From contig OZ004590.1 in the NCBI GenBank assembly GCA_963924555.1, positions 6,192,001-6,256,000 of the forward strand: DNA of 64,000 nt, written 5' to 3'. The notes beneath the pieces were generated by a model. It saw only the letters and a program-made list of their open reading frames with translations, ran no database searches and was not told where the DNA came from. Origin of the DNA: Crambe crambe. Lineage: Eukaryota; Porifera; Demospongiae; Poecilosclerida; Crambeidae. Position numbers and translations under genes: made by a program. Positions 28,239-61,627 of the stretch are shown here, piece after piece (position 1 is the stretch's first letter; each line of letters begins with the position of its first letter).

Positions 28239-28880
28239 TCAAAATATTTGAATCCTGTGATTATCATTGTCACATACATAGATAAATCCGTCTTTATCCA
28301 CAAACACCCCCCACGAGCAATTGAAGTCACCCTTGCTCGACCCTTCCTGTCCAAAGGAAGTGACATATTCCCCCCGAGTGGTGAACACCGATATCATGTG
28401 GTTGTTGAAATTGGCCACATAAACATGCTGGCCGGCTACACACACCCCACTCGGTCCACTCAGTCTATTTTCACCGTTCTCATCGCAGCCAAACGACCGC
28501 AGAAATTCACCTTCACAATTGAGGACTTGAATACAGGAGTTCACATAGTCACTAATGTATAGATTTCCATCGTCGTCTGAAGACACATCTCGAATGCCAC
28601 TCAAACCACTGATATCCGAACTGATTTCTCTCAGGAATTTCAGTTCGTTGCTGAACACAAGAATAGAGTTAGTTTTATAGTCACATGCCATCAATTCCCT
28701 CCCAACCATAGTCAAACCGAACAGCCCCGATGTTTCTTTGCTACTATGCATTCGTAACACTTTTCATTTCTCTATTCAGCTTTACAATTCTACGTTTCTC
28801 ATACTCAACAATATATACGTTGTCACAATTGTCGACAAAGATTCCAGTAGGGTCAGTGATGCCAAACTTTGCTGGTTTCA
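28239..28880 (-). pseudogene. NHL repeat domain, truncated and frame-broken
   Basis: Minus-strand frames read KPAKFGITDPTGIFVDNCDN, EYEKRRIVKLNREMKS, then with a one-base frame change near 28,750, SGLFGLTMVGRELMACDY, IRDVSSDDDGNLYISDYVNS, LSGPSGVCVAGQHVYVANFN and WGVFVDKDGFIYVCDNDNHR, ending IQIF*. These are successive NHL propeller repeats (GPxGI..D..GNIYVxDxxNxRIQ type) from the C-terminus of a TRIM-NHL protein. The upstream domains are missing: at about 28,880 the sequence changes into receptor copy 0 on the other strand. It is therefore a 5'-truncated relic with a rearrangement breakpoint. Confidence 0.8.
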
Positions 28881-30298
28881 AATATGAATCAAGAATGTTA
28901 TTCTTATTACAGACAGTTATCATACAATCAAGTGATTTTAGCAAGAACATACAATCGAGTGATTTCAGCAAGAACAAGTGTTGAAGTGAAGTACTATGGT
29001 AAGTGGTGTGACCGACTTTCGAATTCATTATGCAGATTCCCTCAACCACTCCTTCTCTGCTGATAATGATGATCTATGAAGTAGCTCTCCTGAGGTGTTC
29101 TGCCACTATCAGGTATCCTCCATTGTCCAGTATCTCCATAGTGAAGAACGACATCACCCTCCAAACAACCACTGGTACCACTCTCTCAGTGAGAACTGGT
29201 AAAATGGGAGTGAGTACATTTGGTCTGTATCGGTGCAGAGTGAACACAACTGGAGCACCTATAATTTCACAGAAAGTGATAATAAAAGAGAAAGGTGAGC
29301 ATCATAGCTTTCTTCTTCTTCTTCTTTTTCATCAATAATCTTTATTCACAGCTCGTTTGAGGATAGAGTTTCAAATGAGAGGACCTTTGGAGTGTAGAGA
29401 AGATACTGTAAGTTATAGTGTCAATATATGAATTCTACTCTCAATAATATTAATCATAGGTTTTTATGGGAAGTGTTGAAGCAAGTGTTATTGCCAAGCT
29501 GAGAGAAGACTGTTCTTGCAAATATAACTGCTAACGACTTATAAATGTCTTCATTGCAATGTAATAATGCTCAAACTGTTACATTCTCGACTTTGGTGGT
29601 GTTCTCCAGTGACAGTGGTGATGAAACCGTATCCACACTTACTAACAGGTTCTCTTCTCAAGTATCAGCATCAGCCGTATTCCTCAACTTGGATGGAACT
29701 GAAGCTCTCATTACGTCTGCTTGTAGTGGTGACTGTAACTCCAATATTGGTGTTTATGTCGGACTGTTTTTTGGTGGAGCATTGTTTTGTGCAGTTCTTA
29801 TAGCACTTCTTGTCGTGGTTGCATACTTAATGTAAGTAAGTCAAAAAGAACTGACTTTATATTCAGTTAGTATTCAGATACAGTCTAACAGGGTCCTAAC
29901 CATGATAAGTATAAGTCACTGTCCCTTTCAAGTTCATGGCCTAGGAATAAGCCGTGTTTCATGTACACTTTGACTGCATACCCATTTTACCTCAATTGTG
30001 TCAGCAACTCATTGATATGTATTCAGCATAAACCAATTAGCATGCTATTATGACTAGATATCGGAGGAAGTCATCTAAGAATGCAGACTCACCGAAAGTT
30101 GTTAATGTGACTACTGAGGGAGAAGTCCGTTACTCCAACCGTAGTGGAGAGTTGCAAGTCAAAGAAAAACCTGCCAAAGTGTATAAGAAGAAGCCTAAAG
30201 CTCCTGCTAAGACTAAGCCTAAAGTGGAGCAGAATGAAGAGCTATATGAGCCCTATGAGCTGGATGACCAACAAGAAGTATATGAGTGTGTTGATTGA
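28876..30298 (+). pseudogene. SRCR-Ig receptor copy 0: broken 3' fragment
   Basis: Matches the 3' end of copy 3, introns included. Segments: end of Ig-3 (to 28998), Ig-4 29036-29294, linker 29352-29407, juxtamembrane plus TM 29460-29833, tail 30058-30298, AATAAA 30328-30333. The tail reads [17 protein letters not shown] and ends [17 protein letters not shown], as in copy 3. Ig-4 has lost about seven bases compared with copy 1 (around 29,072), which gives an immediate TGA, and the TM exon has an extra A in the CSCN.. region (near 29,521), which closes that frame too. There is no promoter or 5' half. It is a partial segmental duplicate, recent by its intron similarity to copy 3. Confidence 0.88.
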
Positions 30299-34993: not shown

Positions 34994-37900
34994 ATGGTTG
35001 TCTATTTTCTGATAACTATGTTAGCCTTTCCAGGATTAATTCAGCATTCAGGTAACTAGCTATAGCCATAAATGAAAGCTATTTTAATTTAGCTTACTAG
35101 CTACTATAATTTATTCAAGCTATTCTTTCACCTGTAATGGAGATGAGGCTACTATAGCTGATTGCAGAAGCAGTGGTTATTCCAGATCCTCCTATTGTTA
35201 CCCAACTCTAATCACCTGCCCAACATGTAAGCTCTACAGCAGTTATTCTTGCACTTTGAAATGGCACTATATATGTAATAGTTAGAACACGGTAGTCTGG
35301 TGATTATGGCCAATAAACAACCGAATCCGAGGGCGCAGCCCGAGGATAAGGTTGTTTATTTGGCCATAATCACCAGGACTACCGTGTTCTAACTGTTATA
35401 TATCCCCAGGGCGCACAATTTCATTGGTCGGTCTGTAGCTACCCCTTAGTTACAAAACAAAACGAAAACTCCTGCCATGGCTAGCTTGTCCCTGTCCTGG
35501 GATGTGCCGTTGCTTAGACGCCAACTCTACAGAGCCTCGTGCTCTCGAGCAAGACTACGAACTACGAGGCTCAACTCGAACTCCTCCCATGCCCACACCC
35601 AGCTATTAACGAGTTCCTCCACCCACGTTTTGTATTTGCTAGCGACAGCGAAGCTAGCGGAAGGTATGACGTCAAAAAATACTGAAAAAATACCAAATGG
35701 GCCTTAGAAATAATTTCTTCTTGTGGAAAATTGCAAGAAAAAAATAGCTATAAAGTTTCCTTGTGACCCAGCACCAGATGACTTCTTCATTTTCCAACAA
35801 TCAGCTATAAACTACCCAGAGACAGACAATGTTATCTGATCATTATCTTCATAATCATCTTCTTCCAACAGTCAGCTATAAACTACCAACATAATACAGA
35901 GATACTCTTTAGTTAATGACAATGTTATCTGATCATTATCTCATAGATTATCTTCATTATCATCTTCTTCCAACAGTCAGCTTCAGAAAACCTAGTTATT
36001 CATAGCCTGGGGAACAGTGCGTTTATGAGTCATAACACATTTTACCCTAAGGGAGGGAATTTATGACAGTAAGAGCACTTTTCTCTATGGGAGTAAATGT
36101 ATTAGGTGGGATATATATATATATAAGTAATAGTTATTAACCAAGCACTAGGTTCCCAGGGGCGAGTGCTAATAATTCACTACAAACCGCACGCGCGCGG
36201 TTAATAACTATTTTATAGCCCGCGCGAGTGTATTACGCATGCTCAGTGCTTCTGTCTCTATAGCGATGTTACTTTTTGGCTGCTAACAAGAATATGGCCA
36301 TCCCACTTCAATGTCGTGACTCATACGGTTACCGAACTATATAACCCACCCACTCACTGTGCTTTAACTTGCTCACGTAAGGTAGGGGCACAGCGTCATA
36401 ATTATGGTTGGAGCTGAATGGGCAAGTAGGGCAGCTAGTGCAGAATACCAGCCACGCTGTTACACAGCTCGCAAGTTCTGCCTTTTATGCTGGCTACTCT
36501 CTGAAAAGCTTGTTGGATTTGAAATGTGGAATGTGGTCAATGAATATCATTATAGCGTGCGCTTAAGGACAGAACTCTATACTGTCACATACTCACCTTT
36601 CAGTCTGGTCACAACTCCTTAAAAGTGCAATATCAACTTTGCAGAATCCATATCTAACTTTTCCCTGTAAACACCACCCCAGGCTACAATTACATGCACT
36701 GTATCACATTTATAAATCCATGTAAATCGGTCCGTTACCATGGCAACGGGCTTATATATATGATAATTTGAGAGTGACTATGTTATTATCACTTTATAAT
36801 GAGTGTATAGCTACACATGAGATACTCAGTCAGTGAGTGCAGCAAGCGAACTGACTCTTAGGTCATATGACTCATTGACATTGTAGATATATAGTAGATC
36901 TCAGGTGTAGGTATGGTATTAGTAGCACCCTATGACTTATAGTTGTCACTACAGGCTTATCTATAAGTAGATTGTAGGAACTAGGCTTATTGAAGTGCTT
37001 GTGGGCCAAGTTTGAACCTATCAGCTCTAAAAGCTATAGAAATACTTCACTTGCTCACTCACTGAAAACCACTTTAAAGAAAATAAATTTTCCGTGATAC
37101 AGTGTTGTAAAAGGTTACATAGCATCGTTAGTAAATAAAACCTTGAAGGCATGATAATAATAAATGTTTTAGTAATAGCAAGCTAATTAAACAGTGCATT
37201 TAGTATAGATGAACTTTGAATTCAAACCGCCACTTTATTTATATTGTTATAGTGTTGTGTAACATCGTCAAAAAGTAGCTAAAACCTTGAAGGTGTGATA
37301 AACATGTTTAGTTACACCTACGTATAGTTACAGATCAGTAGCTGATTTTTCTTTCACTATCATAATTCCATGCACAATCACAGATACGAAGGGAAGGGTT
37401 TGAAGGTGGCTGCAACATTTTATTTGAGCTAAACAAATCACAAAAGTCATTGTACATTTTTGAAACCATGTCACTCCTGATTCCTATATGGCCCTGATTT
37501 CATTCTCATCCCACCAGTCTCCTTGAAGCACACTCCACTGTGTAATTTTGGCATAACTGCAGTTTAAAAGCAGCCATGTTTCTTAGCTATATTATAGCCT
37601 GCAGCTGGCAAGATTCAATGGCAACATGTGCATGCATGACCACACTGACATCATAGTTCTGGATGGGTGGGCCTGAGAAACAATGAATTTTGTTTGTGTA
37701 GCCTAAAATTGAATCACGTAAGTTAGTAATTATTTTATAGTCCTAAACTGTTTTATCCTAACTAACTATATTATAATGCTCTCAAGAACTTAATATACCT
37801 GCAATTTATAACCACAAGTTGATGATGCTGTTCAATTGTCAAACGAGTCAGCTTGAGAGTAGCAAAATTCACTCTGTTCTTGTCCCAAGTGTCCTTATTT

Positions 37901-40900
37901 GTCAAACATGAGTCAGCTATCATAAATTCACTTGAGATCAACTGTTTATCCCAAGTGTCCTTATAGATTTGTACAACATGAGTCAGCTATTATAAATTCA
38001 CTCGAGCTCTCATCCCCAAATCAATGCTAAAAAGAATTAGCTGACTCATGTTTGATAAATCTATAGTGAATTTGTGATAGCTGACTCATGTTTGACAAAT
38101 AAGGACACTTGGGACAAGAACAATTAATCTCAAGTGAATTTATAATAGCTGCCATACATCAGCTACATGTATGTGATCCATCACTATATAGCATTCTAAT
38201 AGTGCAAGAGAAACACAGTGCCTCCACATACTTATATCTTGTGCACATACATAGTCCTTTTTTAAACTTATAGGTCCAAGTGGAGCTGTTCGTTTGACTG
38301 GTGGATTGGTTCCACAACAAGGTAATGTTGAAGTCTGCCTTAGTGGAACATGGTCCAGAGTGTGCAATAGGAATTGGGACTATAAGGACTCCTTTGTTGT
38401 GTGCAGACAACTTGGATATCCTGCCACCCAAGCAGGTACAATTCATGTGACCAGTCCATGCATTATTATCATATGAAGACTAAATTCTTCTTTAGCTATA
38501 CTTTATAGCTTATGATTCATTTGCAAACACTATTCTTCTGGTAATTCATTCTGGTCATTTTGTTATAATCATAGTGTTTGCTTCCAAGACACAAAACAGT
38601 CACATAGGCTTTGTACCATCCAGTAATGCCTACAACTGTATTGGAAATGAGAGTTCTCTACTCAACTGTAACTATGTGTCTGATCAGTTATGCCAACTTG
38701 ATAACTCAGTTGGTCTTTATCAACAAATTAACATCTTTTGCAGAGGAAACCTTGCAGGTAGCTATAAAATTTAGCTTCATTATAAAGTATGCATGGTTTA
38801 TGTATTCATGTGAAGTATGCATGTGAAGTGGTTATGTATTCATGTGAAGTGTACCTGGCTCCTATATCAGCATACATGTAATTCATAGATATCAATCAAT
38901 GCTCTCCTGGGGCAATACGTCTTTCTGGTGGTAGGGATCAGTTTGAGGGGAGAGTGGAGGTGTGCAGTATTAATGGAGTGTGGGGAACTGTGAATCGTAC
39001 AGGATGGGACTTCAATGATGCTAAGGTGGCCTGCAGACAACTTCGATTGCTTCAAACAAATGGAATAGTAACAAGTTAGTTTGATAGAAGTCACACTATG
39101 ACATTATAGAAATCCACAGTTCACCATTGATAAGTTGCTACACCATAAATAATAATACTCTTATGACATACAGGAGTTACACTGCCAACTTTTGGACCTG
39201 GTGTGGGACCAATTCTGATATATAATGTGAGGTGTACTGGATCTGAAAGAAGATTAGTAGACTGTCCATCTGGCAGTTATTATTATGGTACTAGTCACTC
39301 CAGTGATGCTGGTGTGAGGTGCCAGATAAATCCATCACCAGGTAATTCCTTCCATCCAGCAGATATAGGGAGAGAAGGAGAAATGCCACCATAGCTTTTG
39401 AATACACCCTGTATTCAAATGGAATACTGTATTGTAGAAAAAGGATTAATTTTACACCTTTGTTATATGTACAGTCCATACTTGCAATTTCGGAGAGGTT
39501 CGTCTTGTTGGAGGAAACAGTTCCAGTGAAGGGCGAGTAGAGATGTGCTACAGAGAAGTGTGGGGGTCCATATGCACTTATGAATGGAGTAACAATGATG
39601 CTGCTGTGGTGTGTAGACAGTTAGGATTCCAAGGAGAAAGTAAGAATATAGCTAAGTACAAGAATAAAATCAATCACTGTTTGCTTGCAGATAGCACAGC
39701 CATAACATCCCAGGTTTATGGTGAGGGATCTGGCCCTTACTTACTGAGTAGTGTTGGATGCAGAGGTCATGAGAGGAATCTAACAGAATGCTCATATGGA
39801 AATTCACAAATTGGGTATCACACTTGCTCCTCTGGACAGGATGCTGGAGTTCACTGTGATGGTATATAGTTGATCTCTTACTATGTAGCATGAAATATTA
39901 TTTGTGGGTTAAAAATTGAAGTGAGAACCATATAATTTTACCCCATGAAATATCATGCTATACAATAGCACAGTGCATGTTCTTGATTCTTTCTCTACTA
40001 TAATATAGCTACCTCATGTAACCATGGTGATGTGAGGTTGTATGGAGGTTACAGCAGAGCAGATGGTGCAGCTGAAGTGTGTATTAATGGACTATGGGCA
40101 AACATATGCTATCGGAATTGGGATGAAACTGATAGCAGGGTTTTCTGTAAACAACTTCTTGGACATGAAAATATTGGTACATAAGTGTAAATGAATGCAC
40201 CTAGCTAAATATTTAAAGAGCTTATGGAAACTTGCCTCCTAGCTGCCCTCAAAACAGCTAAATAACTGGGGCATGTTGGTTGAAAAAAGTACTATAGATA
40301 ATTATGCAGTACTGTTGTATATTATTGGTACATTAACTCCAATACCTTTAATCCACAGCTACTCTGTATTCTTCTGGCCACAATAGGATTTCTCCTACCA
40401 CTAATACTACTCTAATAAATGTTACATGTAGCAACAGAGTAAATCCAAGGTTTATTCGAGACTGCAGTTATGGGTTTGTTCAAGGATACTCAACTTCAAG
40501 TTGTTTCTTGTCTAGTTCAGTGATTGTTGGCTGTTATGGTTAGTTGGGAAAATGCTATATTGAAATTTAATAACTGTAATGATGACATATACAGCTATTG
40601 ATAATTGTGTTAATGGATCTATACGTCTGACTGGTGGAAGTATGAGGAGTGAGGGTGTGGTGGAGATCTGTCTGGATGGTGCATGGGGAACTCTAACTAG
40701 TTCATCCCGGAGTAATGCAGAAGTGGTGTGTCGTCAGTTAGGATATCCATGGGACTGTAAGTAGTGGATCATATCATTCGTGCTCATTGTTAGAACATTA
40801 TACATCCCCACATCCTAATTCTGCATGGTGTGTTCATATATCAAACTTTAAACTGAAGTTAACATGCAGCACCATTGCACACATGCAGTGCAAAGCCAGC

Positions 40901-43900
40901 AGTAAGCAGCCAGCTATAGTTAACCAATAGCTATTTGTGTCCAAAAGCAGCCAGCTATGGCCAACATTTAATTAACAGGCAACTGGGCAACCTCTGTAGC
41001 GTGCTGAAATGGCTCAGTGCCAGAATGGCTGATTAACTGATTAATCAGCCATTCTGGCACTGAGCCATTTCAGCACTCTACAACCTCCCTTAGCAAGCCA
41101 ACAGTTATTAGTGCCCCAGTTGTCTACAGCACTCAGGGCTAGTGAAGGTTGGCACCCATGGCCATACAGCCATTGTTCATTAGTCAACCAGGGGGAGCAG
41201 CCCCTGTAAATTACAGGAGAATAGAGGCAACCCAGTACAGATGTTATGCTGCTCTTATCATTCAGGAATTCTGATTACAATAAGTCAGCACTTTGAACTA
41301 AAATTAATATTATAAAGGAAAAAAATAAATAAGTGTCTATGTGTCGAAAAAGGTCATGAACAAGAGAGCCTACCCCTCCTAATTTCAATAACCACACCCA
41401 TATTACCCAACTGAAGATCCCTACTTAGGGATAGAGTAATGGAGAATGTGGGGATAGAGTAATTGGGTAATATGGGTGTGGTTATTGAATTAGGAGGGGT
41501 ACGCTCTCTTATTCGTGACCTTTTTTGACACACACCCATCCAGTTCATAATACAGTCCAATACAGTATCTATTATCACTGATTAGGGTCTCAGTACTACT
41601 ATGTTCCCACAACCCAAAGCAGATCACCTCACTTATATTATCGAATATACTGCAATGGGAATGAAGATACTCTCCTGAACTGCAACTACAATACACGCTT
41701 ATCACTCTCACAATCTTCTGGTACTAGTGCCTTGAGTTATAGGAGCTACCAAGCAGCTGCTGTGACATGTCAAGGGAATTCCAGTCAAATTAGTCGTGAA
41801 TGTACCTCAGGTGATGTGAGACTTGCCAATTCCTCCAACAATAACATGGAGGGAAGAGTGGAAATCTGCACCAGTGGCATGTGGGTCAGTGTTTGTGATT
41901 GGGACTGGGGCATCTATGAAACACAAGTTTTTTGCAAACAGCTCTTTGGATACCCATTACCAGGTATATATTTTGCTCATTACTCATGTATTTACCAGAT
42001 AGAGGTCACAAGTTAGTGCATGGGCTAAACCCTTGTTGAATCTTGTGCCAGTGAATGTAGTTATGGTTGTACTTACAGAAAAAGAGCTTTATTACAAACA
42101 GGAGTAACCTCGTACCCAAGTGTCCAGCTTTATCACGGAGTGGGAGAACAAAAGGGCCTGATATAAATGTACACCATCCCCAGAATTAAGGGGACTTGCT
42201 ATATTTCCGTGCACTTCAAATTGTTATGTCACCATCATTATGAGTAGAAAATTGCTGGAAGAAAGTTTGAATCGATTCTGTTGCATTTGTTCTTCCAGTG
42301 TTAGAGTCAACTCACCTTACTCTTAAAAAGCATTCTGCGCAAGCTTTGATGTGCCAACTGGGAAGAAAGTCTGACCATAACCTTGTACAGAGAAAAGTAG
42401 TTTGTGTCTCCATTGATCTCATCGCTAGAGGACAGGATTCACCTACATCCCTAAAAATCACCTCCCTCTAAAGATCACTTATTCTTGGCCTGTAAGTGGT
42501 CAGAGTAAGCTTCACTGTAAAATAAGGGCCCCAGAATGTGCCCCATGTATGATAAGTCCATGCATGTCTATGGCTGCATTACTGCATGTGATATTTTGTG
42601 TATAGGATCATTTGCAATCAATGGAGGATTCTATGGAACAGGAAACAATCCAATTCTTCCCCGAGTCAGTTGCAATTATATTATTCAAGGCATAAACTCA
42701 TGTACACATCACTATCAATGGCACACATCTAGTTGTTATCATGGAAAAGAAGTTGGAGTTTTATGTCAAGGTAGATCCATGTAGAATCGTACAGCCTTAG
42801 CCCCTCAGAAGTGATTTTTCTTAGTGTGTGTTTATGAAATTGGTACATATCTTATCACGCGAGTGAGCAGAGCGAGTGAGCTGACTCTCAGGTCATGGCT
42901 CATTGAAATTGTAGATATGTACATCTAGGTCTACACTCCAAAATGCCCCAGGCGTATGTACGGTACCTGTCGTGTAATAGTAGCACCCACCTGGGTGCAT
43001 AATGCATGTCCAATTGTAATTGCCTTGATTGATTTCTACAGTCATAAGTGGCTTAGCTATAACTAAGTGGATTGGTGTGATAAGCATTATGTATGCCGCT
43101 TACATAACTCAACAGCAAAATTTTCCCACAAGGAGTTGAGTATCAAGAGCCTATAGGAATACTAACTTGCTTGCTCGCTCGCTGTGACTCAAATGTTCCA
43201 CGTTGCCCTAGTTCATAGTTGAAGTATAAGACTTATAGGTATGATTACATATGTGTAATGTGGATATATATATTATACATTGCAGGTTCAGTCTTCCATG
43301 TAACAGTCACTTCAAACATAACTGGTCCAGTTCCACTTGGTAGTGTTGTTAAGTTGCACTGCTCCATAAACCCTGACCCATCAATAGGTAGACCAGTACA
43401 ACTGAGGTATTGGTGGAGAGGAAACCATGGAGGTTGGAGCACCTCTATTTCCAGTCCCAATGTGACACTGACTGTTCATGTGACACACTATGAAACAAGC
43501 TACTACTTCTGCAGTGTTTATATTAATGGTCATTTTTTGGCTGTCGGTAGGACTGTTATCAACCTAAAAGGTATGAATGTTTGAAGTATAACAGTTATTG
43601 CTATAATTTTGAATAAAATTATAGATTTATTGATCCCTGTTCTCGAAGTGTCTCCTATAGAATTGGAGGAACAGAATAACTTGACGTTGAGAGTGAATGT
43701 TACTTCTGATAGTGCCAGATTCATCATGAGAAATTTGAATTGGTACTTTAATGGCAACTTAATTGGTAACTCTTCCAATACAATCATCTCCAATGGCAAC
43801 AAAACATTAACCACAACCAATAGAATTGCTGGGGAGTATGAAGCGAGATATGATGGACTGCTCCTGAACAACCCTTATGATAGTACTTGCGAGAAAATGA

Positions 43901-47181: not shown

Positions 47182-50020
47182 ATGGATGTCTATTTTCTGA
47201 TTTTCATGTTAGCTGTTTCAGGATTAATTCAACATTCAGGTATATAACAGCAAGCTAGCTAAAATCTGATTAAGCTTACTCAATATCTGCAGTGCTAGTG
47301 TCAGCTCAAAGTGCTATAATCAGCAATGTGCGTCTGAATGGTGGTGGTAACTCAGGAACACTACAATTTGATAACTCTGTAGGAAGTGGATGGCTGAATT
47401 ATTGTGAATGGGATAATAATATCATCAGAATTAAATCTGTGATATGCCGCATGTTGGGATATGAGTCTGACAGTGAAAGGATCTCACACTCAAGCAAGTG
47501 GAATCATTTATACCAAAATCTATGCTAAAATACTAAAATGCTTTTGTATTGTGCTATTACCACTGAAATGTGTATTCTGCACTGGCATAGGAACATGGGG
47601 TCACCGGTAGCCAGGGCCACCCTTAATTTTTGAGGAATAGTCATTTATCACTTGTGCTACACTACATCCTCAACCTCCTTGACAAATCACAATTTAGAAC
47701 TAGAAGCTGCAACTAAAGCAAAGAAGTTAGTGTTGGCCTTCTAATCAAATGATTATCCAGGGCTGGATCCAAGATTTTAGATAGGTGGGGTTGGGCACAC
47801 ACAGCACATAAAATTATGGGGGAATTTTTTTGAAGGACCCATGTTGACCTCACTGACAGGACTGTCTTGCTTCATGCACTGTGTGATCGCCTGCATATGT
47901 ATATGTTGGAGGCCACAGTGCAATACAGATGTGTTATATTTCTATTTTCCGAGAGATGATATAGATGATATGTGCATGGTCACAGGTGTCATAGTTACCA
48001 CTCCTGGATCCAGCTGTTATCACATTATGTTAATGTGAAATAGCTCTAATTTTGCAATCAATTTATGCCCCCAACCTGGCCACTCTAAGGAAAACCATCT
48101 TCCTATGCTACTGTTCAGCATGGAGATGAATGACAGCCTAGCTATATATTAATCGAACAATCTAAAATGTACTTTGTACTAATTCAGAATTGCTATGGTT
48201 ACTAAACTGTTGAATTGTCATAACAATGTATATTATGACATTATTTTAAGTGTAGGAGGAAGCAACCTTTATGATGGAAGTACACGTTATTTGAGATATA
48301 CCCTTACCTGCAATGGAGATGAGGCTACTATATCTGATTGTAGAGTCAACAATAATTATTATTGGAGATCTTTGCACTGCTATACAACCATAATAACTTG
48401 TCCTACATGTAAGCTAAGAATAACTATAACCAATTAGTCAAATAATGTGCTTCCAGCAGAATATGTCTAGCTATGTTTTCAACCACAGGTCACTAACTAG
48501 TTAGAAGGGATCAAAGTAGTTAGTGACCTGTGGTTTCTGTATAGTTTGCATTAATTGAAGTAAAACTGATCAGGCAGAGTTTTTTAGGTGTCTAACAAAT
48601 GGAAGTAAAATGTATAGTAAATTTTTACGACTAATGGAAGTAAATGTATTAGGTAAATGTTTATAACTAATGGAAGTAGCTAAATGTATTAATATATTTA
48701 CTTCCATCATTTACTATATTCCACTTAATACATTTACTTCCATTAGTTATAAACATTTACTTAATTAAGTGGGAGGCTATTTAGAAATTATAAACTTGAA
48801 GAGCAGTACATCTCGAGCACTCAAGACTATTACTGAGTTATTCTAACTTCATACGAAAGCACTTAGCTAAAGTGGATCATATCATAGAATAGCATGGCTA
48901 CTAAAAACCTATATACTCTGCTCAAAATTTGATTGTTGTGATATCATCCTTGGTTAGGTCAGCATGGATCTGTTCGTTTGACTGGTGGATTGGTTCCACA
49001 ACAAGGTAATGTTGAAGTTTGCTTAAATGGAGCATGGTCAAGAGTGTGCAGTAGAAATTGGGACTATAAGGACTCCTTTGTCGTGTGCAGACAGCTGGGA
49101 TACCCTGCCACTCAAGCAGGTATACTGGCTTTTATTGATATGCACTCTATACATTTATAGTACTTCCATCACCTGAGTGTATACCCAATATAATTTTTAT
49201 CACCTTTGTTGCAGAACATACAACTATCACATCCTATGGTCACATAGGCTTTGTGCCATCCAGTAATACCTACAACTGTATTGGAAATGAGAGTTCTCTA
49301 CTCAACTGTAACTATGTGTCTGATCAGAATTGCCAACTTGCTGGAACCTCAATTAGTTTCTCTCAACAAATCCATCTCTTTTGCAAGGGACAAGTTGCAG
49401 GTATATTATTAGCTATCTTTAGTTTTGTTTTGCTTTGTTCTTGTTTTTTATTTTCACAAATCCACAAATATTTTTCTCCCATGATGATTACCTACTGTCT
49501 TAATCCTTCACTTCTAGTGTGTGGGTGGGTTGGGGGGCAACACAATGTCATAATAAACACTCCATGGTGCAATATTTAGATCTCAATCAGTGTTCTCCTG
49601 GGGCAATACGTCTCTCTGGTGGAAGGGATCAGTTTGAGGGGAGAGTGGAGGTGTGCAGTAATAATGGACTCTGGGGAACTGTGAGTCGTCGTACAGGATG
49701 GGATTCCAATGATGCTACAGTGGCCTGCAGACAACTTGGATTGCTTCAAGGAAGTGGAATATTAACAAGTATATAATAACTATCTCTTGATGCCTCTGTT
49801 TCAGTAACTATAATTATTACTGTTATTATATTGTACAGGAATTACATTGCCAACCTTTGGACCTGGGGTGGGACCGATCCTGCTATATAATGTGAGGTGT
49901 ACTGGATCTGAAGGAAGACTTGTGGACTGTCCATCTGGCAGTTATAATTATGGTACTCACCACAACAATGATGCTGGTGTGAGGTGCCAATTAAATTCTG
50001 AATCAGGTAGCTATGCATGA
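47182..50020 (+). CDS. SRCR receptor copy 2: signal peptide plus 3 SRCR, no TM
   Basis: Exons 47182-47239, 47293-47493, 48256-48408, 48958-49119, 49215-49400, 49580-49768 and 49839-50006 are all phase 1 and open. Signal peptide MDVYFLIFMLAVSGLIQHS; SRCR-1 with VRLNGGGNSGTLQF and VICRMLGYES; SRCR-2 [24 protein letters not shown]-3 [18 protein letters not shown]. Intron 2 would need a GC donor (A|GCAAGT), where copy 3 has GT. After the last exon no further SRCR, Ig or TM exon appears before the relic at 50.5 kb. Reading through the last donor gives ESGSYA and a TGA at 50018-50020, so a secreted three-SRCR protein is possible; a truncated, dying gene is the alternative. Sequence is close to copies 1 and 3 in SRCR-2/3, more divergent in SRCR-1. 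Confidence 0.68.
48480..48765. repeat. Two inverted repeats in intron of copy 2
   Basis: CCACAGGTCACTAACTAGTT pairs with TAGTTAGTGACCTGTGG (48,483-48,534). Further on, AATGGAAGTAAATGTATTA-type units pair with their complements TAATACATTTACTTCCATTA (48,597-48,762). Probably small MITEs. Confidence 0.65.
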
Positions 50021-50520: not shown

Positions 50521-50856
50521 ATATCACCTATACTTGGTTAGGTCAACATGGAGCTGGTTCCATAGCAAGGTAAATTATTTTAGTTGGATCATGGTCCAGA
50601 ATGTGTAGCATGGTATAGTAGGACTTTATTGTGTACAGCAAAGACTTTTTCTTGTGTCAACACAGGAAGGAAGTATTATTACAAAGTCGTGCAACAACAC
50701 TATAACATGTGACCTGCTCTGATAGCTAGCTTTATAGCTACAGCAGCTGCTGGATAAGTGCAAGTAAAGGATAATTCAGTGTTTGAAGTAGCTTAGTTGT
50801 GTACAGCCAGCATGGATGTCATATATTTCATTACTGGATTACTTCAGCATTCAGGT
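50521..50856 (+). pseudogene. Relic of a further SRCR receptor copy
   Basis: GGTTAGGTCAACATGGAGCT at about 50,541 and GGATCATGGTCCAGAATGTG at about 50,586 are decayed pieces of a first-half SRCR exon (compare 48958-49119), with deletions that destroy the frame. At 50,812 ATGGATGTCATATATTTCAT leads into ACTTCAGCATTCAG|GTATAG, a shortened signal-peptide exon (MDVIYFITGLLQHS). No exons follow before copy 3. It marks another, lost member of the cluster. Confidence 0.65.
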
Positions 50857-51360: not shown

Positions 51361-54300
51361 ATGGTTGTCTACTTTCTGATGGCTATGTTAGCCTTTCCAG
51401 GATTAATTCAGCATTCAGGTAACTAACTAATGAAAGCTATTTTAGTTAAGCTTACTAGCTACTATTATATGCCTGCAGTGTCAGCTCAAAGTGTTAAGAT
51501 TAGTGATGTACGTCTGAATGGTGGCTCCAGTCACAACACAGGCACACTGCAGTTACTCATTCCTGTGGGAACTGGTGGCTGGCAGACCCATTGTTTATCT
51601 CTAAACAGCAGAATTGCATCAGTGGTATGTCGCATGTTAGGATATAGCACCAATGGGATCTCATATTCAGGTAAATAAAACCTCTTCAGTTACACTTTGC
51701 AATCCAATTCATATCAAAGTGTCTTCCCCATGTGCACAAATTACACATAGCTACAGTACTGACAATTATCCCATGCAGGAGGAATCAGACTTACTGGTAA
51801 TTATTTGAGATATTCTTTCACCTGTGATGGAGATGAGGCTACCATAGCTGATTGCAGGAGCTATGGTTATTCCAGATACCCCTATTGTTACCCAACTCTA
51901 ATCACCTGCCCAACATGTAAGCTCTACAGCAACTAACTAGCTATAAAGGAACAGTTTCTTGCACTTTGAAATGGTACTATAGGATTTGAGAGTGGCTATG
52001 TTGTATCACTTTTTAATGAGTGTACATGCAGTGAACAAACTGGCTCTTAGGTCATATGACTCATTGATGTATATATATTTAGGTCTAGGCTCCAAGTGTA
52101 GGTATGGTAAAATTAAGTGTCATGATTAGTAGCTATAGCACCTTATGAAGTAAAATTCAAACCAATAATTATATGCATGAACACTAATGACATATTTTCT
52201 TTATAAGTGTACAAAAACACCTTAATGAGATTTCAAATAAAAAGTGTAATAGCAAGCTAATTGATCAGCGGCAGTAAAATAACGGCAGTAAAATATCAAT
52301 TCTTCGGTGCATTTAGTTTAGGGAACAGAATTAAATCCACTTGAAATGTTTTGCTTTTTATAGTATTATGAAGAGTTACATAGCATCATCAAAAAGTAGT
52401 CTATGATTTAAAGTAAACTCACTTAAACAAACCATAATCATAATAAACATAACAAACCTGTTTAGGTATACCTACGTAGTTTAGGAAATAGTTTCTCAGG
52501 CACTTCAATCACAAAAGTCATGTAGGTTGCACATCTTTGAAACCACTCCCACTTCCTATGGCCTTGAATAATACCAGTATCCTTAGCTAGAAGCACACTC
52601 CACTGTATAGTTTTAGCATAACTGCAACTAAAAACTAGCCATGCATGTTTAATAATTCAATGGCACATGTAAGCATTTACAGCTTTCTATGAATGGAGCT
52701 TCCTAGTTGGAACCCCACTTACATGACTTTGTCTCTGACAGCAATATCAAGCACTGGAACCCATCAGCTACTTTAATTGCTCAATTGCTCACTGTCACCT
52801 GAGTCAATACTAAAAATATCTCAACTAGACACAAATTCATGCATGCCATGCATTAGAATATGTAGCTATACATGATGTGATCCATTACTATATAGCATTT
52901 TATATAATGCAAGAGAAACACAATGCCTCCACATACTTATATCCTATGCACATACATAGTAGCATATGGAGGGCTTTAATCCTTGATTCTTAACCTCATA
53001 GGTCCAAATGGAGCTGTTCGTCTGACTGGTGGGTTGGTTCCACACCAAGGTAACATTGAAGTTTGCTTGAATGGATCATGGTCCGGAGTGTGTAATCAAA
53101 ATTGGGACTATAAGGACTCCTTTGTTGTGTGCAGGCAACTTGGCTATCCTGCCACCCAAGCAGGTACTATTCATGTCAGTCCATGCATTATTATCATGAA
53201 GACTAAATTCTTCTTATATAGCTATACTTTATAGCTTATGATTCATTTGCAAACACTATTCTTCTGGTAATTCATTTTGTTATAATCATAGTGTTTGCTT
53301 CCAAGACACAAAACAGTCGCATAGGCTTTGTACCATCCACTAATGCCTACAACTGTATTGGAAATGAGAGTTCTCTACTCAACTGTAACTATGTGTCTGA
53401 TCAGTCATGCCAGCTTGATAACTCAGTTGGTCTTTATCGACAAATTAACATCTTTTGCAGAGGAAACCTTGCAGGTAGCTATAAAATTTAGCTTCATTAT
53501 AAAGTATATTAATACACTACCATATCAGTATCACGATAATTATACATAATAATTCATAGATATCAATCAATGCACTCCTGGGGAAATACGTCTCTCTGGT
53601 GGTAGGGATCAGTTCGAGGGAAGAGTTGAGGTGTGCAGTAATGGAGTGTGGGGAACTGTGAGTCGTACAGGATGGGACTCCAATGATGCCACAGTGGCCT
53701 GCAGACAACTTCGATTGCTTCAAGCAAATGGAATAGTAACAAGTGAGTGATAGTTGGTTGTGATCTTCAAACCTGAGCTATCATTGTCATCATTGCAGTA
53801 GCTAGCTATTATGATTCTGATTATACTATGCACAGGAGTTACATTGCAGACTTTTGGACCTGGTGTGGGACCAATTTTACTGTATAATTTGAGGTGTACT
53901 GGATCTGAAAGTAGACTTGTGGACTGTCCATCTGGCAGTTATTCGTATGCTCTTGACCACAGCAATGATGCTGGTGTAAGGTGTCAACATAATCCATCAC
54001 CAGGTAATGCCATGGAGGAAAGGAGGCACTTGCATGGGCATATGTGCCATCATGTAACAAAGGACTTGGCTTTTGAATCATGTGTCCTCATATTTTATCT
54101 TCTCTCTGAAACAGTCCATACTTGCACTTACGGAGAGGTTCGTCTTGTTGGAGGAAGCAGTTCTAGTGAAGGGCGAGTAGAGATGTGCTACAGAGGAGTG
54201 TGGGGGTCCATATGCACTTCTGGATGGAGTAACAATGATGCTTTTGTGGTGTGTAGACAGTTAGGATTCCAAGGAGAAAGTAAATCAAAGAGGAAAACAC

Positions 54301-57300
54301 TCAAACTATGAAGTTATAAAATGTTGCTTTCACAGATAGCACAGCAATAAGATCTCTAGCCTATGGTGAGGGATCTGGCCCTTATTTACTGAGTGGAGTT
54401 GGATGCAGTGGTCATGAAAGGAATCTAACAGAATGCTCACGTTCATATTCACAACTTGGATCTCATGCTTGCTCCTCTAGACAGGATGCTGGAGTTCACT
54501 GTGAAGGTGGATAATTTGAAATGCATGGGCTTGTAGGGGCATCACTATCAATGAAGGAGCACAGTATTTTTAGCACACTGGTGATTGTTGTTGTTCTTGC
54601 CATAGCTTATCGCTTTAATATTTATATTCCACCTAAATTATCATAAACCTATACACATGACAAATGCATTGCATTATATAATTATGGCTTTCAGTTACTA
54701 GATGTAACCATGGTGATGTGCAGGTATACCAAGGAAACAGCAGAGCAGATGGTTTAGCTCAAGTGTGCATCAATGGACTGTGGGCAAAAATATGCTACCA
54801 GAATTGGAATATTAACAACAGCAATATATTCTGTAGACAATTACTTGGAAGAGAGAATACAGGTAGGTATAAGCTTATGACAGCAGTATTATTAAGTGAC
54901 ACATGCATACACACACAGTCACATACAGGGGGGTAGGAAGATGATTTGAGGTAGGGGTGCTATAATTCTGTGTACTTGGGGGGGGGGGGGGGGGGGGGGG
55001 GCATTGTAAGATTATGAAAAAGTAAAACAAAACAACAACTATAACAACAACTTTAAAAATTTCCAATTCTCCACAGTAGAAATAAATTCTCTAGCTACTT
55101 TATATAACATAATGCTATGTTGCAAGTGGCTGTACGTATTTCAAGGGGTGCTAACAAGAAAATCTAGGGGTGCTACAAAAATTAATAGAAAAGCAATGTA
55201 CAACCTCCAAAATCTAGGGGCTACAGCACCCTTTGAACCCCCCTTTCCTATACCCCCTGACATACACAACCATAAATTCATGCTCTATATGAATGGGCTG
55301 GCTGGATAAAAAAATTAGCTATTTTATGTGAAGTTTTCCATGAATAGCTATACAAGCACATTTGTTTGTATAAATATAAAGGAAAAAGCATTTCATGAAA
55401 TGAAAAAAGATGTAGGGATGACCACTGCTCAAAAAAGTAAGGAAACAAGAAGGATGGAAATGGGATCAATCTTTGTTCTGTATATCCAGCCAACAATCCC
55501 TACATATACGTCGGGTAACTTCAGATTATAGTGTAGTAATGCTGCGTATATGTAGGGATTGTTGGCTGGATATACAGAACAAAGATTGATCCCATTTCCA
55601 TCCTTCTTGTTTCCTTACTTTTTTGAGCAGTGGTCATCCCTACATCTTTTTTCATCTCACGAAATGCTTTTTCCCCTTACATGGTCTTTTTTCCTCTCTT
55701 TTATGGTTTTAGCTATGTATAGAGTTCATTCTTCTATGTGTATGCAGGGACAGATGAAAGAAGTTCTCCAATAGTTCTCCAATAGCATACCAACCCAATC
55801 ATTATCGAGTCAAGGTGTTGTGTTTCGTTGAGCCATACTTGGAAGTCGAAGATGCTGAAATAGAGTCTACCGTGGTGAATCTAAATCCCCGAATCGATAC
55901 AGTAGTCTATCATCATATCCAGAGCTAGCTAGCTAGCTAGCTAGCTAGAGACAGCTGAGTAATATTATAATTTCGAATAATTGGATATCAAATACATGCG
56001 CATGCGTATTATAGAAAAGATGGCTTCCTAATTGAATTAATCGAGTGCTGTGCTCCGTAGTGTCTCCTTTTTCATCGACTCTTTCGAGGATCAACGAGTA
56101 GAAAAGATCGTAGTTCGTAGAATTTGGAGTGGATTTGTCCAGAAATCATAGCTGTAGCTTGAGTGGTTCGAGAGATATGGTTGTCTAAGAATAATAATAA
56201 TAATAATAATAAGGCCACATCAAATTAATTACTTGTTTATCATCCTAATTTCTTCAAAAAATAGTAGAGGGGGGGAGGCTTTTATTTTTATTTTTTATTG
56301 GTTTCCATGGCAACTATTTATACAGGATCTAAAAAGCAAACGAGTATAAACATGGATATCATTATGGAAACATGCACAAAAAGCTGAAGTTTAACAAAAA
56401 GTCATAAAAAAAAAGAAGCTGAAGTTCCTGCACACTTTATAATAGCCACCAAAACTAAAATCACATGAAAATCACACCTGAACTTCAAATAGAGCACACC
56501 ATGCGCATGCTCAGTAGAAATAAAATTAAAAGTCCAGAAGAGCAAAAATCAGGAGAGGGAGGGGATGATAAACAAGTAATTAAGTTGATGTGGCCTAATA
56601 GAGAAGAAGAAGAAGAATCCAGCGATTTACCTGCTTGCCGTATTTCTGAAACGGTAAGCTCCCTGGTCCTGAAACTTGGTCTGCACATTGTAGTAGGCTC
56701 TAGTAGGCTGGATAATCATTCACAGTAGCTTTTGTTAGGTCTAAGTGGGGGAACTAGAATTTCACTTTAGTATTAGTCTATAGGCGGCGCGCGCGGCCGT
56801 CCGAGTCATCCCTACATAGAGAGTGCTACCGCACTCTCTGATATTTATTAACTAATGGTAACTATTATGTATGTTATTTATTTTGTAGCTGCACTATATA
56901 CTACTTACCAGAACGGAAGAATCACCCCTTCCCTCATGAATGTTGTATGTAATGAAATCAGTGCAACAATTGTCCATGGCTGCAGTTATCAGTACACAAA
57001 TTCAAGTTGTACCAGCATATATATTGGTTGTTATGGTTAGTAGCAATCATAATAAGTTAGTAGCAATCATAATAAATTAGTAGCTACCACAATAAGTTAG
57101 TAGCGATCATAATAAGTTAGTAGCTATCACAATAAGTTAGTAGCTATCATAATAAGTTAGTAGCTATCATAATAAGTTAGTAGCTATCATAATAAGTTAG
57201 TAGCTATCACAATACACTGTAAAAATGAAAGTGTGTACTGCACACTAAATTGTCCCAATACACACACTAAAAACAAAACAGTGTGTGTATTGGGACTATA

Positions 57301-60300
57301 TGGTGTGTAGTAAACACTTTCATTTTTACAGTGTAAGTTAGTAGCTATCATAATAAGTTAGTAGCTATCACAATAAGTTAGTAGCTATCACAATAAGTTA
57401 GTAGCTATCAAATAAGTTAGTAGCTATCACAATAAGTTAGTAGCTATCACAATAAGTTAGTAGCTATCACAATAAGTTAGTAGCTATCACAATAAGTTAG
57501 TAGCTATCACAATAAGTTAGTAGCTATCATAATAAGTTAGTAGCTATCACAATAAGCAATATAGGAGTTATAGTTTTGTAATTATTAGCTATTGATGATT
57601 GTGTTAATGGGTCTATACGTCTGACTGGTGGAAGTGGAAGCAATAATGGAGTAGTGGAGATCTGCCTGGATGGTGCATGGGGAACTATAACTTCCTCATC
57701 CTGGAACACACCTGATGTAGAAGTACTATGCCGCCAACTAGGATTTCCATGGGATTGTGAGTTTTATATGAGAGTAAACAGATATCAATATGCATGCCAA
57801 TCAAGTTGCAGAAGGATAATACTTAACCATTCACATTATTTAACTGTATTGCATGGATAATGGAAGCAAATAGAAGCAAGTCCCATATTAAGGAAGGGGT
57901 CAGGTATTTCAACAATTTCATAGTAGCAGTTTTCAACGGGTAAAAGGAACAGTAATCTATACACATGCACATTCGCCTACACATGCACATTCACTATATA
58001 TGCAATAATACTTGCATGCTATATGGACTAAAAATGCTATTGTGTGTACAGGAAGTCAAATAGTTCATTTCATAGGGTCTGGCTACCACAGTATTCGAAA
58101 AACTCAAAGCCAATTACCTAACTTGCTGTTTCAAGTATATTGTAATGGGAATGAAGATATCCTGCTGAACTGCAGCTACTTCAGGCGCTTATCACTCTCA
58201 TCAACTTCTACTAGTTACAATGCCTTGAACTATAGGTCCTACCGAGCAGCTGCTGTGACATGTCAAGGGAATTCCAGTCAACTTAGTCATGATGAATGCT
58301 CTTCTGGTGATGTGAGACTTGCCAATTCCTCCAACAATAACATGGAGGGAAGAGTGGAAATCTGCACCAGTGGCATGTGGGTCAGTGTTTGTGATCAGTA
58401 CTGGGGCATCCATGAAACACGAGTTTTTTGCAAACAGCTCCTTGGATACCCAATCCCAGGTATTAATTTAGTGCACAGTGAATATTAATTTTGTCCATGC
58501 ACTCATGTATAGAGGTCACAACTTATACCAACTTCGTATGGTTTGAAACATTGAATTTTTGTTTATGACATTGTGCTGGTGGTGTACAGCTATAGCTACC
58601 TATGATGGATAAGTACGACTCAGAAATCAAAAAAAAAAATCAAAGAGCCTATTATGTACCTGCAACATACAGTGAAACCTGAGAGCATAAGTCCATGCAC
58701 TCTGTTGTGTCCTGACATCACCACCTTACAGGTTCACTGTAATAACAAAAAGAGGCACTAAAATGCCCCATGAATGACAGATCCACCACTGCATGTCTAT
58801 CATAGACTATATGTGTGAATGACTGCATGTGATATTTTGTTATAGGATCATTTGAAATCAATGGAGGATTCTATGGAACAGGAAACAATCCAATTCTTCC
58901 CCAAGTCTATTGCAATAATGATTACAACACTCCAGACATAAACTCGTGTAGAATTGACTACCAACGGTCCACATCTAGATGTTATCATGGAAGAGAAGTT
59001 GGAGTTGTATGTCAAGGTAAGACCCATGCATATATGTAGAGTTGTAGCCTTAGCCCCTCAGTATGATTTTTGTTTAGAATCAGTACACACTCCACAATTC
59101 ATTTAGTGCCCAATTATGTATGAGTAGCTACATCAGTAACAATAAGGCATTATGTGTGCATGTATACTCTGTTCAGGTCCAGTCTTCCATGTCACAGTCA
59201 CTTCAAATGCAACTGGTCCAGTTCCACTTGGTAGTGTTGTTGAGTTACACTGTTCCATAAGCCCTGACCCATCAATAGGCAGACCAGTACTACCGAGGTA
59301 TAATATATGGAGAGGAAACTATGGAGGTTGGAGACCTTTTTTTACCCTCAGTCCCAACGTGACACTGACTGTTCATGTGACACACTATGAAACAAGCTAC
59401 TACTTTTGCAGTGCTTATATTAATGGTCATGTTTTGGCTGTTGGTAGGACTGTTATCAAAGGAAAAGGTATGAATGTTTGAAGCATAACAGTTATTGCTA
59501 TAATTTTTGAATAAAAATTATAGATTTATTGATCCCTGTTCTCAAAGTGTCTCCTATAGAATCGGAGGAACAGAATAACTTAACATTGAGAGTGAATATT
59601 ACTTCTGATAGTGCCAAATACTTCATGAGAAATTTGAATTGGTACTTTAATGGCAACCTAATTGGAAACTCTTCCAATACAATCATCTCCAATGGCAACA
59701 AAACATTAACCACAGCCAATAGAATTGCTGGGGAGTATGAAGCAAGATACGATGGACTGCTCCTGAACAATCCTTATGATAGTACTTGTGAGAAAATGAT
59801 TCTAAAGACCTTAAGACACCATCCTTTATTTAAACCAGTAAAGTTCCTCGTCAACACACAAGGTAAATACATATAAAGTAAAACTTAATTCTAGCTGATT
59901 ACGATACACTAACCCCCATTTATCACAGAGATGATGAATAGGAAACCTGATATCAGCATACAAGTCAATGGTGCAACAGAGAGTATTATTACTATCACAA
60001 ATGGTGATAATTTCACTCTTAAGGCTGTGGGACAACTTACAACATCAATCGAACCAAGTGAAGTTGATATAGTCTGGTACTTCAATGGCAATTTTGTAGG
60101 ATCATCAAGTCGTGTACGAAATCAAAACTTTATTTCCAGAGACTTGATACGCACTAGTTCTACCTACCATTATGCTGGAATTTATGAAGCACTGCTTATC
60201 TGGAATATGAATCAAGAATGCTCCTCTTATTACAGACAGTTGTCAAGCAACCGAGTGATTTTAGCAAGAACAAATATTGAAGTTAGTTACCATGGTGAGT

Positions 60301-61627
60301 AGTTGTTATTATACACTTCAAAACACATTATTGATGTGATATTCTTTATGCAGTGTCTCTTGATCACTCCTTCTCTGCCGATAAGAATGAACTGTTTTCA
60401 AATGAAGTAGCTCTCCTGAGGTGTTCTGCCACTATCAGGTATCCTCCACTGTCCAGTATCTCCATAGTGAAGAACAACATCACTCTTCAAATAACCACTG
60501 GTACCACTCTCTCAGTGAGAACTGGTCGAATGGGAGTGAGTACATTTGGTCTGTATTGGTGCAGAGTGAATACCACTGGAGCACCTATAATTTCACTGAA
60601 AGTGATAATAAAAGAGAAAGGTGAGCATCATAGCTTTCTATTTTTTCTTCTTCTTTCATCATTTATTATCATTATTCACAGCTCGTTTGAGGATACAGTT
60701 TCAAATGAGAGGACCTTTGGAGTGCAGAGAAGATACTGTAAGTTATAGTGTCAATATATGCAATTCTACTCTCAATAATATATCATAGGTTTTTATGGGA
60801 AGGGTTGAAGCAAGTGTTATTGCCAAGCTGAGAGAAGACTGTTCTTGCAATATAACTGCTAACGACTTACAAATGTCTTCACTGCAATGCAACAATGCCC
60901 AAACTGTTACATTCTCGACTTTGGTTGTGTTCTCCAGTGACAGTGGTGATGAAACTGCATCCACACTTACTAACAGGTTCTCTTCTCAAGTATCAGCATC
61001 AGCCGTATTCCTCAACTTGGATGGAACTGAAGCTCTTGTTACGTCTGCTTGTAGTGGTGACTGCAGCTCCAATGTTGGTGTTTATGTCGGACTCTTTATT
61101 GGTGGAGCATTTTTTTGTGCAGTTCTTATAGCACTTCTTGTTGTGGTTGCATACTTAATGTAAGTAAGTCAAAAAGAACTGACTTTATATTCAGTTAGTG
61201 AGCATTAATTGAGATACAGTCTAACAGCAGAACTAAGGTCCTAACCGCAATAAGTATAAGTCACTATCCCTTTTTAAGTTCAGGCCTAGGAATAAGCCGT
61301 GGTTCATGTACACTTGACTGTTTACCTCAATTATGTCAGCAACTCATTGATATGTATTCAGCATAAACCAATTAGCATGCTATTATGACTAGATATCGGA
61401 GGAAGTCATCTAAGAATGCAGACCCACCGAAAGTTGTTAATGTGACTACTAAGGGAGAAGTCCGTTACTCCAACCATAGTGGAGAGTTGCAAGTCAAAGA
61501 AAAACCTGCCAAGAAGAAGCCTAAAGCTCCTCCTACTAAGACTAAGCCTAAAGTGGAGCAGAGTGAAGAGCTATATGAGCCTTATGAGCTGGATGTCCAA
61601 CAAGAACTATATGAGTGTGTCGATTGA
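51361..61627 (+). CDS. SRCR-Ig receptor copy 3 (7 SRCR, 4 Ig-like, TM, tyrosine tail)
   Basis: Exons: 51361-51418, 51479-51670, 51779-51916, 53002-53163, 53292-53474, 53560-53742, 53836-54003, 54115-54279, 54336-54506, 54695-54862, 56889-57035, 57589-57756, 58076-58459, 58846-59016, 59177-59467, 59524-59862, 59929-60294, 60354-60620, 60682-60737, 60789-61159, 61393-61627 (1460 codons plus stop, in frame). Signal peptide [19 protein letters not shown]; seven SRCR domains to about residue 819, with motifs such as [18 protein letters not shown] and VCRQLG; four Ig-like domains to about 1240; a juxtamembrane region with CSC and a conserved [20 protein letters not shown], perhaps SEA-like; TM about 1354-1382 ([20 protein letters not shown]); an 78-residue tail with Lys/Pro-rich part, [14 protein letters not shown] and LYECVD. 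Acts presumably at the cell surface. Poly(A) signal at 61657-61662. Complete and apparently intact; family member name unknown to me. Confidence 0.88.
52000..52800. mobile_element. Dispersed element copy in intron 3 of copy 3
   Basis: GCAGTGAACAAACTGGCTCT, TAGGTCATATGACTCATTGA at the left and GCTCAATTGCTCACTGTCA at the right are diverged ends of the same family as 36,780-37,075. The interior shares AGCATCATCAAAAAGTAG with the same intron of copy 1 (37,262), so it is an old shared insertion. Confidence 0.45.
54926..55259. mobile_element. 334-bp hAT-like MITE with poly-G core
   Basis: Ends CAGGGGGGTAGGAA and TTTCCTATACCCCCTG are inverted; ACATA lies directly outside both (54921-54925 and 55260-55264), a 5-bp target duplication. 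A G tract of about 23 bases starts at 54,979. Same plan as 27769-27990 though different in sequence. In the intron between SRCR-5 halves of copy 3. Confidence 0.78.
55382..55673. repeat. Large near-perfect palindrome (~130-bp arms)
   Basis: AAAAAGCATTTCATGAAATG, AAGATGTAGGGATGACCACT, ATGGAAATGGGATCAATCTT and AGCCAACAATCCCTACATAT on the left are repeated in inverted order on the right, ending CACGAAATGCTTTTTC, around a spacer of about 33 bp. It can form a very stable hairpin in the pre-mRNA of copy 3. Confidence 0.92.
56203..56850. mobile_element. Composite dispersed element in copy 3 intron
   Basis: AAGGCCACATCAAATTAATT ACTTGTTTATCATCC at 56,210-56,245 is inverted at 56,562-56,598, giving a hairpin with about 315 bp between the arms. 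The adjoining 56,600-56,850, with CCAGCGATTTACCTGCTTGC, GCGGCGCGCGCGGCCGTCCG and AGAGAGTGCTACCGCACTCT, recurs inverted at 63,613-63,855. Confidence 0.75.
57040..57560. repeat. 20-bp tandem array TAAGTTAGTAGCTATCACAA
   Basis: About twenty copies of a 20-bp unit with C/T and length variants, in the intron before exon 57589-57756 of copy 3. The array is split by the MITE at 57215-57333. Confidence 0.93.
57215..57333. mobile_element. 119-bp mariner-type MITE (TA target)
   Basis: CACTGTAAAAATGAAAGTGT begins the element and its complement ends it; the interior is also largely palindromic (CAATACACACACT / AGTGTGTGTATTG). TA flanks both sides (57213-57214 and 57334-57335), and removing the element plus one TA restores the 20-bp array unit. 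The TA target and short TIR are typical of Tc1/mariner-derived MITEs. Confidence 0.88.

Follow-up and report, generated by a model that had tools for sequence, protein, structure and literature searches.

An SRCR-Ig receptor gene family with two cytoplasmic tail classes in the sponge Crambe crambe, a candidate paired-receptor-like recognition system

What kind of receptor system is encoded by a tandem cluster of sponge genes that joins scavenger receptor cysteine-rich (SRCR) and immunoglobulin-like (Ig) domains in the same predicted proteins? The cluster lies in a 64,000-nucleotide stretch of Crambe crambe contig OZ004590.1 (C13:6192001-6256000), hereafter the window, whose own numbering is used below unless a contig is named. 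Two of its genes, A and B, were proposed in an original prediction made from the letters alone to be SRCR-Ig transmembrane receptors of an expanding recognition family. Here we find that they belong to a family of at least 24 related loci, in which two classes of cytoplasmic tail occur with ectodomains that are partly mixed between the classes, a combination that may mark a paired-receptor-like recognition system.

Genes A and B and the extent of their family

Gene B (51361..61627, + strand; exon joining, Pfam and polyadenylation-signal scan) comprises 21 exons encoding 1460 residues in the order leader, SRCR1-7, Ig1-4, stalk, transmembrane segment (TM) and class B tail, and gene A (34994..46200, +; exon joining) comprises 19 exons encoding 1310 residues in the order leader, SRCR2-7, Ig1-4, stalk, TM and class A tail; both reading frames and both exon counts reproduce the original prediction exactly. 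All joins in the two genes have AG/GT borders and no internal stops were found on joining the exons from sequence. In gene B, also on the + strand, the SRCR exons occupy 51479..59016, the Ig exons 59177..60620, the stalk and TM exons 60682..61159, and the tail exon, which reads ...YSN...LYEPYELD...YECVD and has no match to an immunoreceptor tyrosine-based inhibitory motif (ITIM), 61393..61627, followed by an AATAAA signal at 61657. The corresponding parts of gene A (+) are the SRCR2-SRCR7 exons at 38274..42770, the Ig exons at 43286..45358, the stalk and TM exons at 45417..45931 and the tail exon at 46065..46200, which reads ...NESYAIMSVQHADTIIYECVN and contains an ITIM-like IIYECV. Each SRCR domain is encoded by two exons, 6b and 7a being fused in a single one, and each Ig domain by one. 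Almost every exon is symmetrical, with phase 1 at both ends, and the introns are in phase 1 as far as the exon preceding the stalk-TM exon; 3' of the Ig block come a 56-base exon, the stalk-TM exon, in which a C-x-C pair and a third cysteine are all invariant, and then the tail exon. Gene A is without SRCR1 and appears to have lost it, because all that is left is an orphan second-half exon within its first intron (approximately 35110..35230, +; 84% to S1b of gene B), which has no in-frame join to the leader exon; on this reading of the sequence, retention of SRCR1 in gene A is ruled out.

Profile matches and hydropathy bear out most of the proposed domain order. In gene B, Pfam places seven SRCR stretches at E 1.7e-112, and both Ig_3 and Ig_2 exceed their cut-offs in the Ig block, which assigns these parts to the SRCR and Ig superfamilies, respectively; no sushi match of the kind expected for a Geodia-type SRCR and short-consensus-repeat (SCR) receptor occurs among the Pfam hits of gene B at E<=1. 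Across aligned copies, Ig1 matches Ig_2 in 18 of 18 and Ig4 in 18 of 19, and Ig3 is weak, with an Ig_3 match at E<=0.1 in 10 of 19 copies (best 0.0091). The alignments, A1-A5, kept 18/22, 20/23, 19/22, 19/23 and 23/26 rows once near-identical copies had been removed together with one fragment and one stop-containing copy. Hydropathy, by which alone the TM was called, gives a single strong stretch near the C-terminus (residues 1353-1387 in B and 1236-1270 in A), so that both products are predicted type I membrane receptors with one TM and a cytoplasmic tail. The proposed signal peptide is likely but not proven, because the leader looks hydrophobic on inspection yet few windows exceed 1.6 (one in B, at 1.62, none in A, and four of about 1.9 in gene C, described below). 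Over their full lengths B and A carry 22 and 25 N-glycosylation sequons. A guess that the stalk adopts a SEA-like fold was dropped, as a PDB profile search mostly met the amyloid precursor TM and Pfam returned weak matches only. At C45:11800-14059, a distant Ig4-like and stalk-TM-like exon pair repeats the C-x-C pattern, which may point to a broader family of receptors with a common stalk.

The family extends far beyond the window. A search of the genome (143 Mb in 119 contigs) with the Ig block and the stalk-tail block of gene B, followed by exon placement, yielded at least 24 related loci: 16 on C13, all on the + strand within about 250 kb (approximately 6.11 to 6.36 Mb), and eight on five other contigs (four on C10 and one each on C17, C18, C8 and C9). 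Because all 24 carry the same 3' module, a single-copy gene or a chance join of SRCR and Ig exons is ruled out for this genome. The Ig1-4 and TM exons are complete and free of stops in 19 of the 24 loci, and 17 also have a tail that can be assigned to class A or B; the other five (6111, D, 6292, c18 and c10_1957) look broken in Ig or TM exons, locus 6119 has no tail that we could find and that of 6128 has diverged. These last two belong to outlying copies at C13:6119-6131 kb, and the 6128 tail, which has other tyrosines, may be a third type. SRCR exons precede the Ig exons in each of the 12 loci whose SRCR part was examined, three of which (6271, 6357 and c9) have a short 6b exon and no second half of SRCR7 that could be found; the genome as a whole holds at least 175 SRCR hits, a number that, like the genome size, is in keeping with the sponge-like host originally inferred. 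Three tandem copies on C13, at 6148, 6167 and 6184 kb, are near-identical, and therefore either duplication is ongoing or the assembly contains duplicates. The copy number and these tandem copies strongly support the expansion originally proposed. Counted outside the 24 are a fragment at C8:7196 kb and second 3' cassettes at 6151, 6169.7 and 6186 kb; we set the cassettes aside as alternative tails, because the TM exon carries a stop in two of them and the tail exon is broken in the third.

Tail classes, mixed ectodomains and constraint

Tail exons, read by eye, fall into two classes, with 10 loci in class A, 11 in class B and three of the 24 unclassified. Class A, which comprises gene A, 6271, 6336, 6357, two copies on C10, those on C17, C8 and C9 and a diverged C18 copy, typically ends in NESYAIM...[IV]IYECVN. 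Its last tyrosine is ITIM-like in nine of the 10 loci, judged against a short vertebrate consensus ([ILVS]xYxx[ILV]), and YAIM or YAVM is present in eight. Class B (gene B, relic D, described below, and nine others) ends in LYEPYELD...YECVD; YEPYEL is found in all 14 class B tail exons or pieces and the ITIM-like pattern in none of the 14. YECV is common to both classes.

Possible readers of such tails are present, with 135 SH2 hits in the genome. Among the matches listed, C18:6539084-6540942 has two SH2 domains followed by a strong tyrosine-phosphatase match, the order of an SHP-type phosphatase, and a tyrosine-phosphatase match lies at C13:6089924-6090328, about 20 kb 5' of the receptor array. 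Closely paired SH2 hits also form a tandem array at C5:1.417-1.522 Mb, one copy of which reads by eye, though not by profile, as SH2-SH2 followed by kelch-like repeats. Separately, C9:2.62-3.41 Mb and C13:3.54-3.87 Mb contain, among the matches listed, dozens of I-set Ig hits in steps of about 10-30 kb, many of them lying within about 3 kb of a tyrosine-phosphatase hit; the pattern resembles large tandem arrays of genes for Ig-receptor phosphatases.

The ectodomain exons follow the tail classes only in part. Class tests covered the loci other than 6111, 6119 and 6128 (tail unclassified) and D (incomplete), and comparisons and trees of SRCR exons used the 12 loci in which the SRCR part was covered. 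The synonymous difference between classes minus that within classes is 0.022 for Ig1, 0.029 for Ig2, 0.065 for Ig3, 0.134 for Ig4 and 0.218 for the TM exon. In trees of 19-20 loci, Ig3, Ig4 and TM each require one class change (support 79, 99 and 100), and Ig1 and Ig2 require four and five, with a class A clade rejected by the approximately unbiased test (p-AU 0.039 and 0.0086); a 12-locus tree of Ig1-Ig2 rejects it as well (0.002). Individual copies are mosaic: a class B tail goes with an SRCR5 of class A type at loci 6136 and 6281, and a class A tail with an Ig3 of class B type at c17. Locus 6292 is a clean A/B crossover. When its first 1400 bases were compared at sites where A and B differ and 6292 matches one of them, 83 A-only and two B-only sites were counted 5' of about 6286.9 kb, one of each in the bin of change, and no A-only and 151 B-only sites beyond 6287.1 kb. 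Two old lineages would split every exon by class; the mosaic exons therefore indicate that exchange crossed the class border more than once, though unevenly along the gene.

The ratio of nonsynonymous to synonymous differences (pN/pS) is below 1 in all 16 exon types compared (0.21-0.74, in up to 12 loci), and the proteins are therefore constrained and probably used. The lowest values are those of SRCR2a (0.21) and Ig2 (0.30) and the highest that of Ig1 (0.74), followed by the adjacent SRCR6-7 exons (0.61-0.70), so that Ig1 and SRCR6-7 appear to be the fastest-changing parts. With 18 loci, pN/pS is 0.73 (0.50-1.08) for Ig1 and 0.30 (0.22-0.44) for Ig2, and the closest Ig1 pairs (19 pairs with synonymous divergence below 0.1) give a pooled value of 1.01.

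Gene C, relics and neighbouring sequence

The remaining elements of the cluster that had been proposed, a third gene with three SRCR domains only, a broken 3' copy and a relic, all on the same strand, were each recovered. Gene C (47182..50020, +; exon joining) encodes a leader and SRCR1-3 in 376 residues, with neither Ig domains nor a TM. Its model requires one GC-AG intron, with the GC donor after 47493, and ends by read-through of the last donor; in the polyadenylation-signal scan, neither AATAAA nor ATTAAA lies within 600 bases of its stop. Its product is possibly secreted, or the gene is possibly truncated. Relic D (28876..30298, +) retains the end of Ig3, Ig4, stalk, TM and a class B tail exon; Ig4 contains a stop, the stalk exon a frameshift and a stop, and the tail exon is open. 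Between genes C and B the sequence holds a relic leader exon (50812..50854, +) and, read by eye, a likely relic of an SRCR2 first-half exon (approximately 50536..50660, +).

On the opposite strand, 3545-4978 and 28242-28763 contain RING, B-box and sub-threshold filamin matches of a TRIM-like gene and, separately, NHL repeats, which terminate about 110 bases ahead of relic D. A YqaJ domain and pieces of a Mutator-like transposase lie between relic D and gene A (32783-34555, -). Tandem repeats with a 32-base unit occur at 62817-63486 and with a 20-base unit at 57036-57588, within an intron of gene B.

Possible functions and comparison with known systems

A paired-receptor-like recognition family, made up of type I receptors with two tail classes and partly mixed ectodomains, would be the simplest account of these data because it covers copy number, constraint, the two tail classes and the mixed ectodomains together; we put its chances at about even. 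The distal SRCR domains and Ig1 would bind ligands, either microbial surfaces or cell-surface molecules, and Ig2-4 and the conserved cysteine stalk would keep this ligand-binding part away from the membrane. Cytoplasmic tyrosines would be phosphorylated and then read by SH2 proteins, with class A signalling through its ITIM-like last tyrosine and a YxxM-type tyrosine and class B through YEPYEL and a YECV that lacks ITIM context. Recombination or conversion among copies would partly mix the ectodomains, chiefly in Ig1-Ig2, and the stalk-TM-tail end would stay class-specific. Mixed ectodomains on class-specific tails would therefore allow similar ligands to evoke two different signals, the arrangement seen in paired receptors. 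From the tails we infer that class A may inhibit and that class B may not; transcription, ligand binding, tyrosine signalling and opposite outputs are likewise presumed from sequence. The SRCR and Ig domains, the tail tyrosines and the mosaic ectodomains suggest a recognition or immune role. A more specific version seems doubtful to us: some 20 SRCR-Ig receptors would form a sponge paired-receptor system for allorecognition or for discriminating symbionts, its ectodomains would be pooled by recombination between an ITIM-like inhibitory tail class and another signalling tail class, and an expanded set of SH2 proteins would read it.

Several observations weigh against the paired-receptor-like reading. 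Class signal persists in Ig1 and Ig2, where no more than 2 and 12 of 2000 shuffles of the class labels reached the observed difference, and the between- minus within-class synonymous difference is 0.067 in SRCR7b. SRCR5 and 6a split strongly by class (0.199, 0.230 and 0.114; 12 loci), and the class difference therefore does not change evenly along the protein. Class A copies group together, without clear support, in trees of SRCR2-3 and SRCR4-5 (12 loci), which do not reject a class A clade; nor do those of SRCR6-7 (9 loci, p-AU 0.307) or Ig3 (11 loci, 0.385). The agreement between TM and class is partly built in, because the labels come from the adjoining tail, and mosaic copies are equally expected from neutral conversion in a tandem array. 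In the Xenopus CEACAM system considered below, conversion is tied to opposite gene orientation (PMC5112662, in the part available), whereas the C13 copies share one strand. No exon among the 16 types has a pN/pS clearly above 1, which leaves diversifying selection unsupported, and the pooled Ig1 value fits relaxed constraint as well as diversification. As to signalling, the ITIM call depends on the short vertebrate consensus, and no immunoreceptor tyrosine-based activation motif (ITAM) was recognised by eye in class B tails. Nor is there a charged residue in the TM core among the listed copies, the arginine of c8 sitting at the outer edge, and these two results leave a reading of class B as ITAM-type or adaptor-pairing receptors without support.

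Cell-adhesion or allorecognition receptors offer another explanation, in which the ectodomains would attach to adjacent cells or to aggregation-factor complexes and the tails would set fusion versus rejection. The long multi-domain proteins with their many sequons, the tandem mosaic array and functional parallels with Botryllus FcoR, Hydractinia Alr and the Geodia SRCR/SCR aggregation receptor, as far as the available sections of those papers go, speak for such a role; some copies are almost identical, however, and would confer little individuality, and we consider it unlikely. The conserved YECV, kept in both classes, also fits YxxPhi, an endocytosis signal motif, and the family could instead comprise receptors with which a filter feeder scavenges and takes up bacteria, with the tail types as sorting variants. 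Microbe binding by SRCR proteins of other invertebrates (PMC7308585, available part) is in keeping with uptake, but uptake alone leaves the two tail classes with mixed ectodomains and the extra tyrosines unexplained, and its prospects appear slim. Neutral birth-and-death evolution in a tandem array, accompanied by ordinary conversion among its genes and with the tails reflecting one old split without paired function, is very unlikely: broken copies (five of the 24 loci, and two more with the tail unfound or diverged) and extra 3' cassettes are common and conversion is expected among tandem copies, but the pN/pS values argue for working proteins and the tail tyrosines are retained in copies on several contigs.

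How the paired-receptor-like reading relates to known systems can be judged from the parts of the cited papers that were available. SRCR and Ig domains in invertebrates have been mentioned before (PMC7308585, PMC6208332), so that the combination itself, which the original prediction did not recognise as a named family, is known; a two-tailed SRCRn-Ig4-TM family is apparently new, as none turned up in a literature coverage that included few subscription journals and no supplementary tables. Sponge SRCR superfamily expansions, with 296 genes in Amphimedon (PMC10855680) and SRCR arrays also in PMC3447736, resemble the present family in their tandem SRCR arrays, recent duplications and variable SRCR number. 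The commonest partners listed in PMC10855680, in contrast, are EGF_CA, cEGF, FXa_inhibition, kinase and astacin, and its available text describes neither an SRCRn-Ig4-TM family nor a two-tail system. The putative aggregation receptor of Geodia cydonium is likewise a sponge membrane receptor with SRCR domains but has short consensus repeats instead of Ig, and no two-tailed multigene family is described in the accessible part of PMC4557014. Sponge Ig-TIR receptors share an Ig ectodomain but have an inner TIR domain, no SRCR and 1-2 genes per species, according to the sections available (PMC6208332).

Further parallels come from other animals. Botryllus FcoR is a type I TM multigene family that mixes Ig with another module, and its tails carry an ITIM or a core YxxI/L/V, the first resembled by class A and the second by class B; unlike the sponge family, it has sushi instead of SRCR and belongs to a known histocompatibility locus of a chordate (PMC12065747, in part). 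The 41 Hydractinia Alr genes are also clustered Ig-domain receptors with ITAM and ITIM noted, but have a reported allorecognition role (PMC11999971 and PMC12065747, in part). In the paired CEACAM receptors of Xenopus, conversion keeps the ligand-binding exons similar between genes with opposite tails; they differ in being vertebrate, in using an N-domain exon and in opposing ITIM to ITAM or ITAM-like tails (PMC5112662, in part). Pooled ectodomains on two kinds of tail are most familiar from the paired receptors of vertebrates, immune receptors that activate or inhibit cells, and a tunicate and a hydroid offer parallels. If the paired-receptor-like reading is correct, the same logic built from SRCR and Ig modules in a sponge would imply a very early or repeated origin and would provide concrete candidate receptors for sponge self or symbiont recognition.

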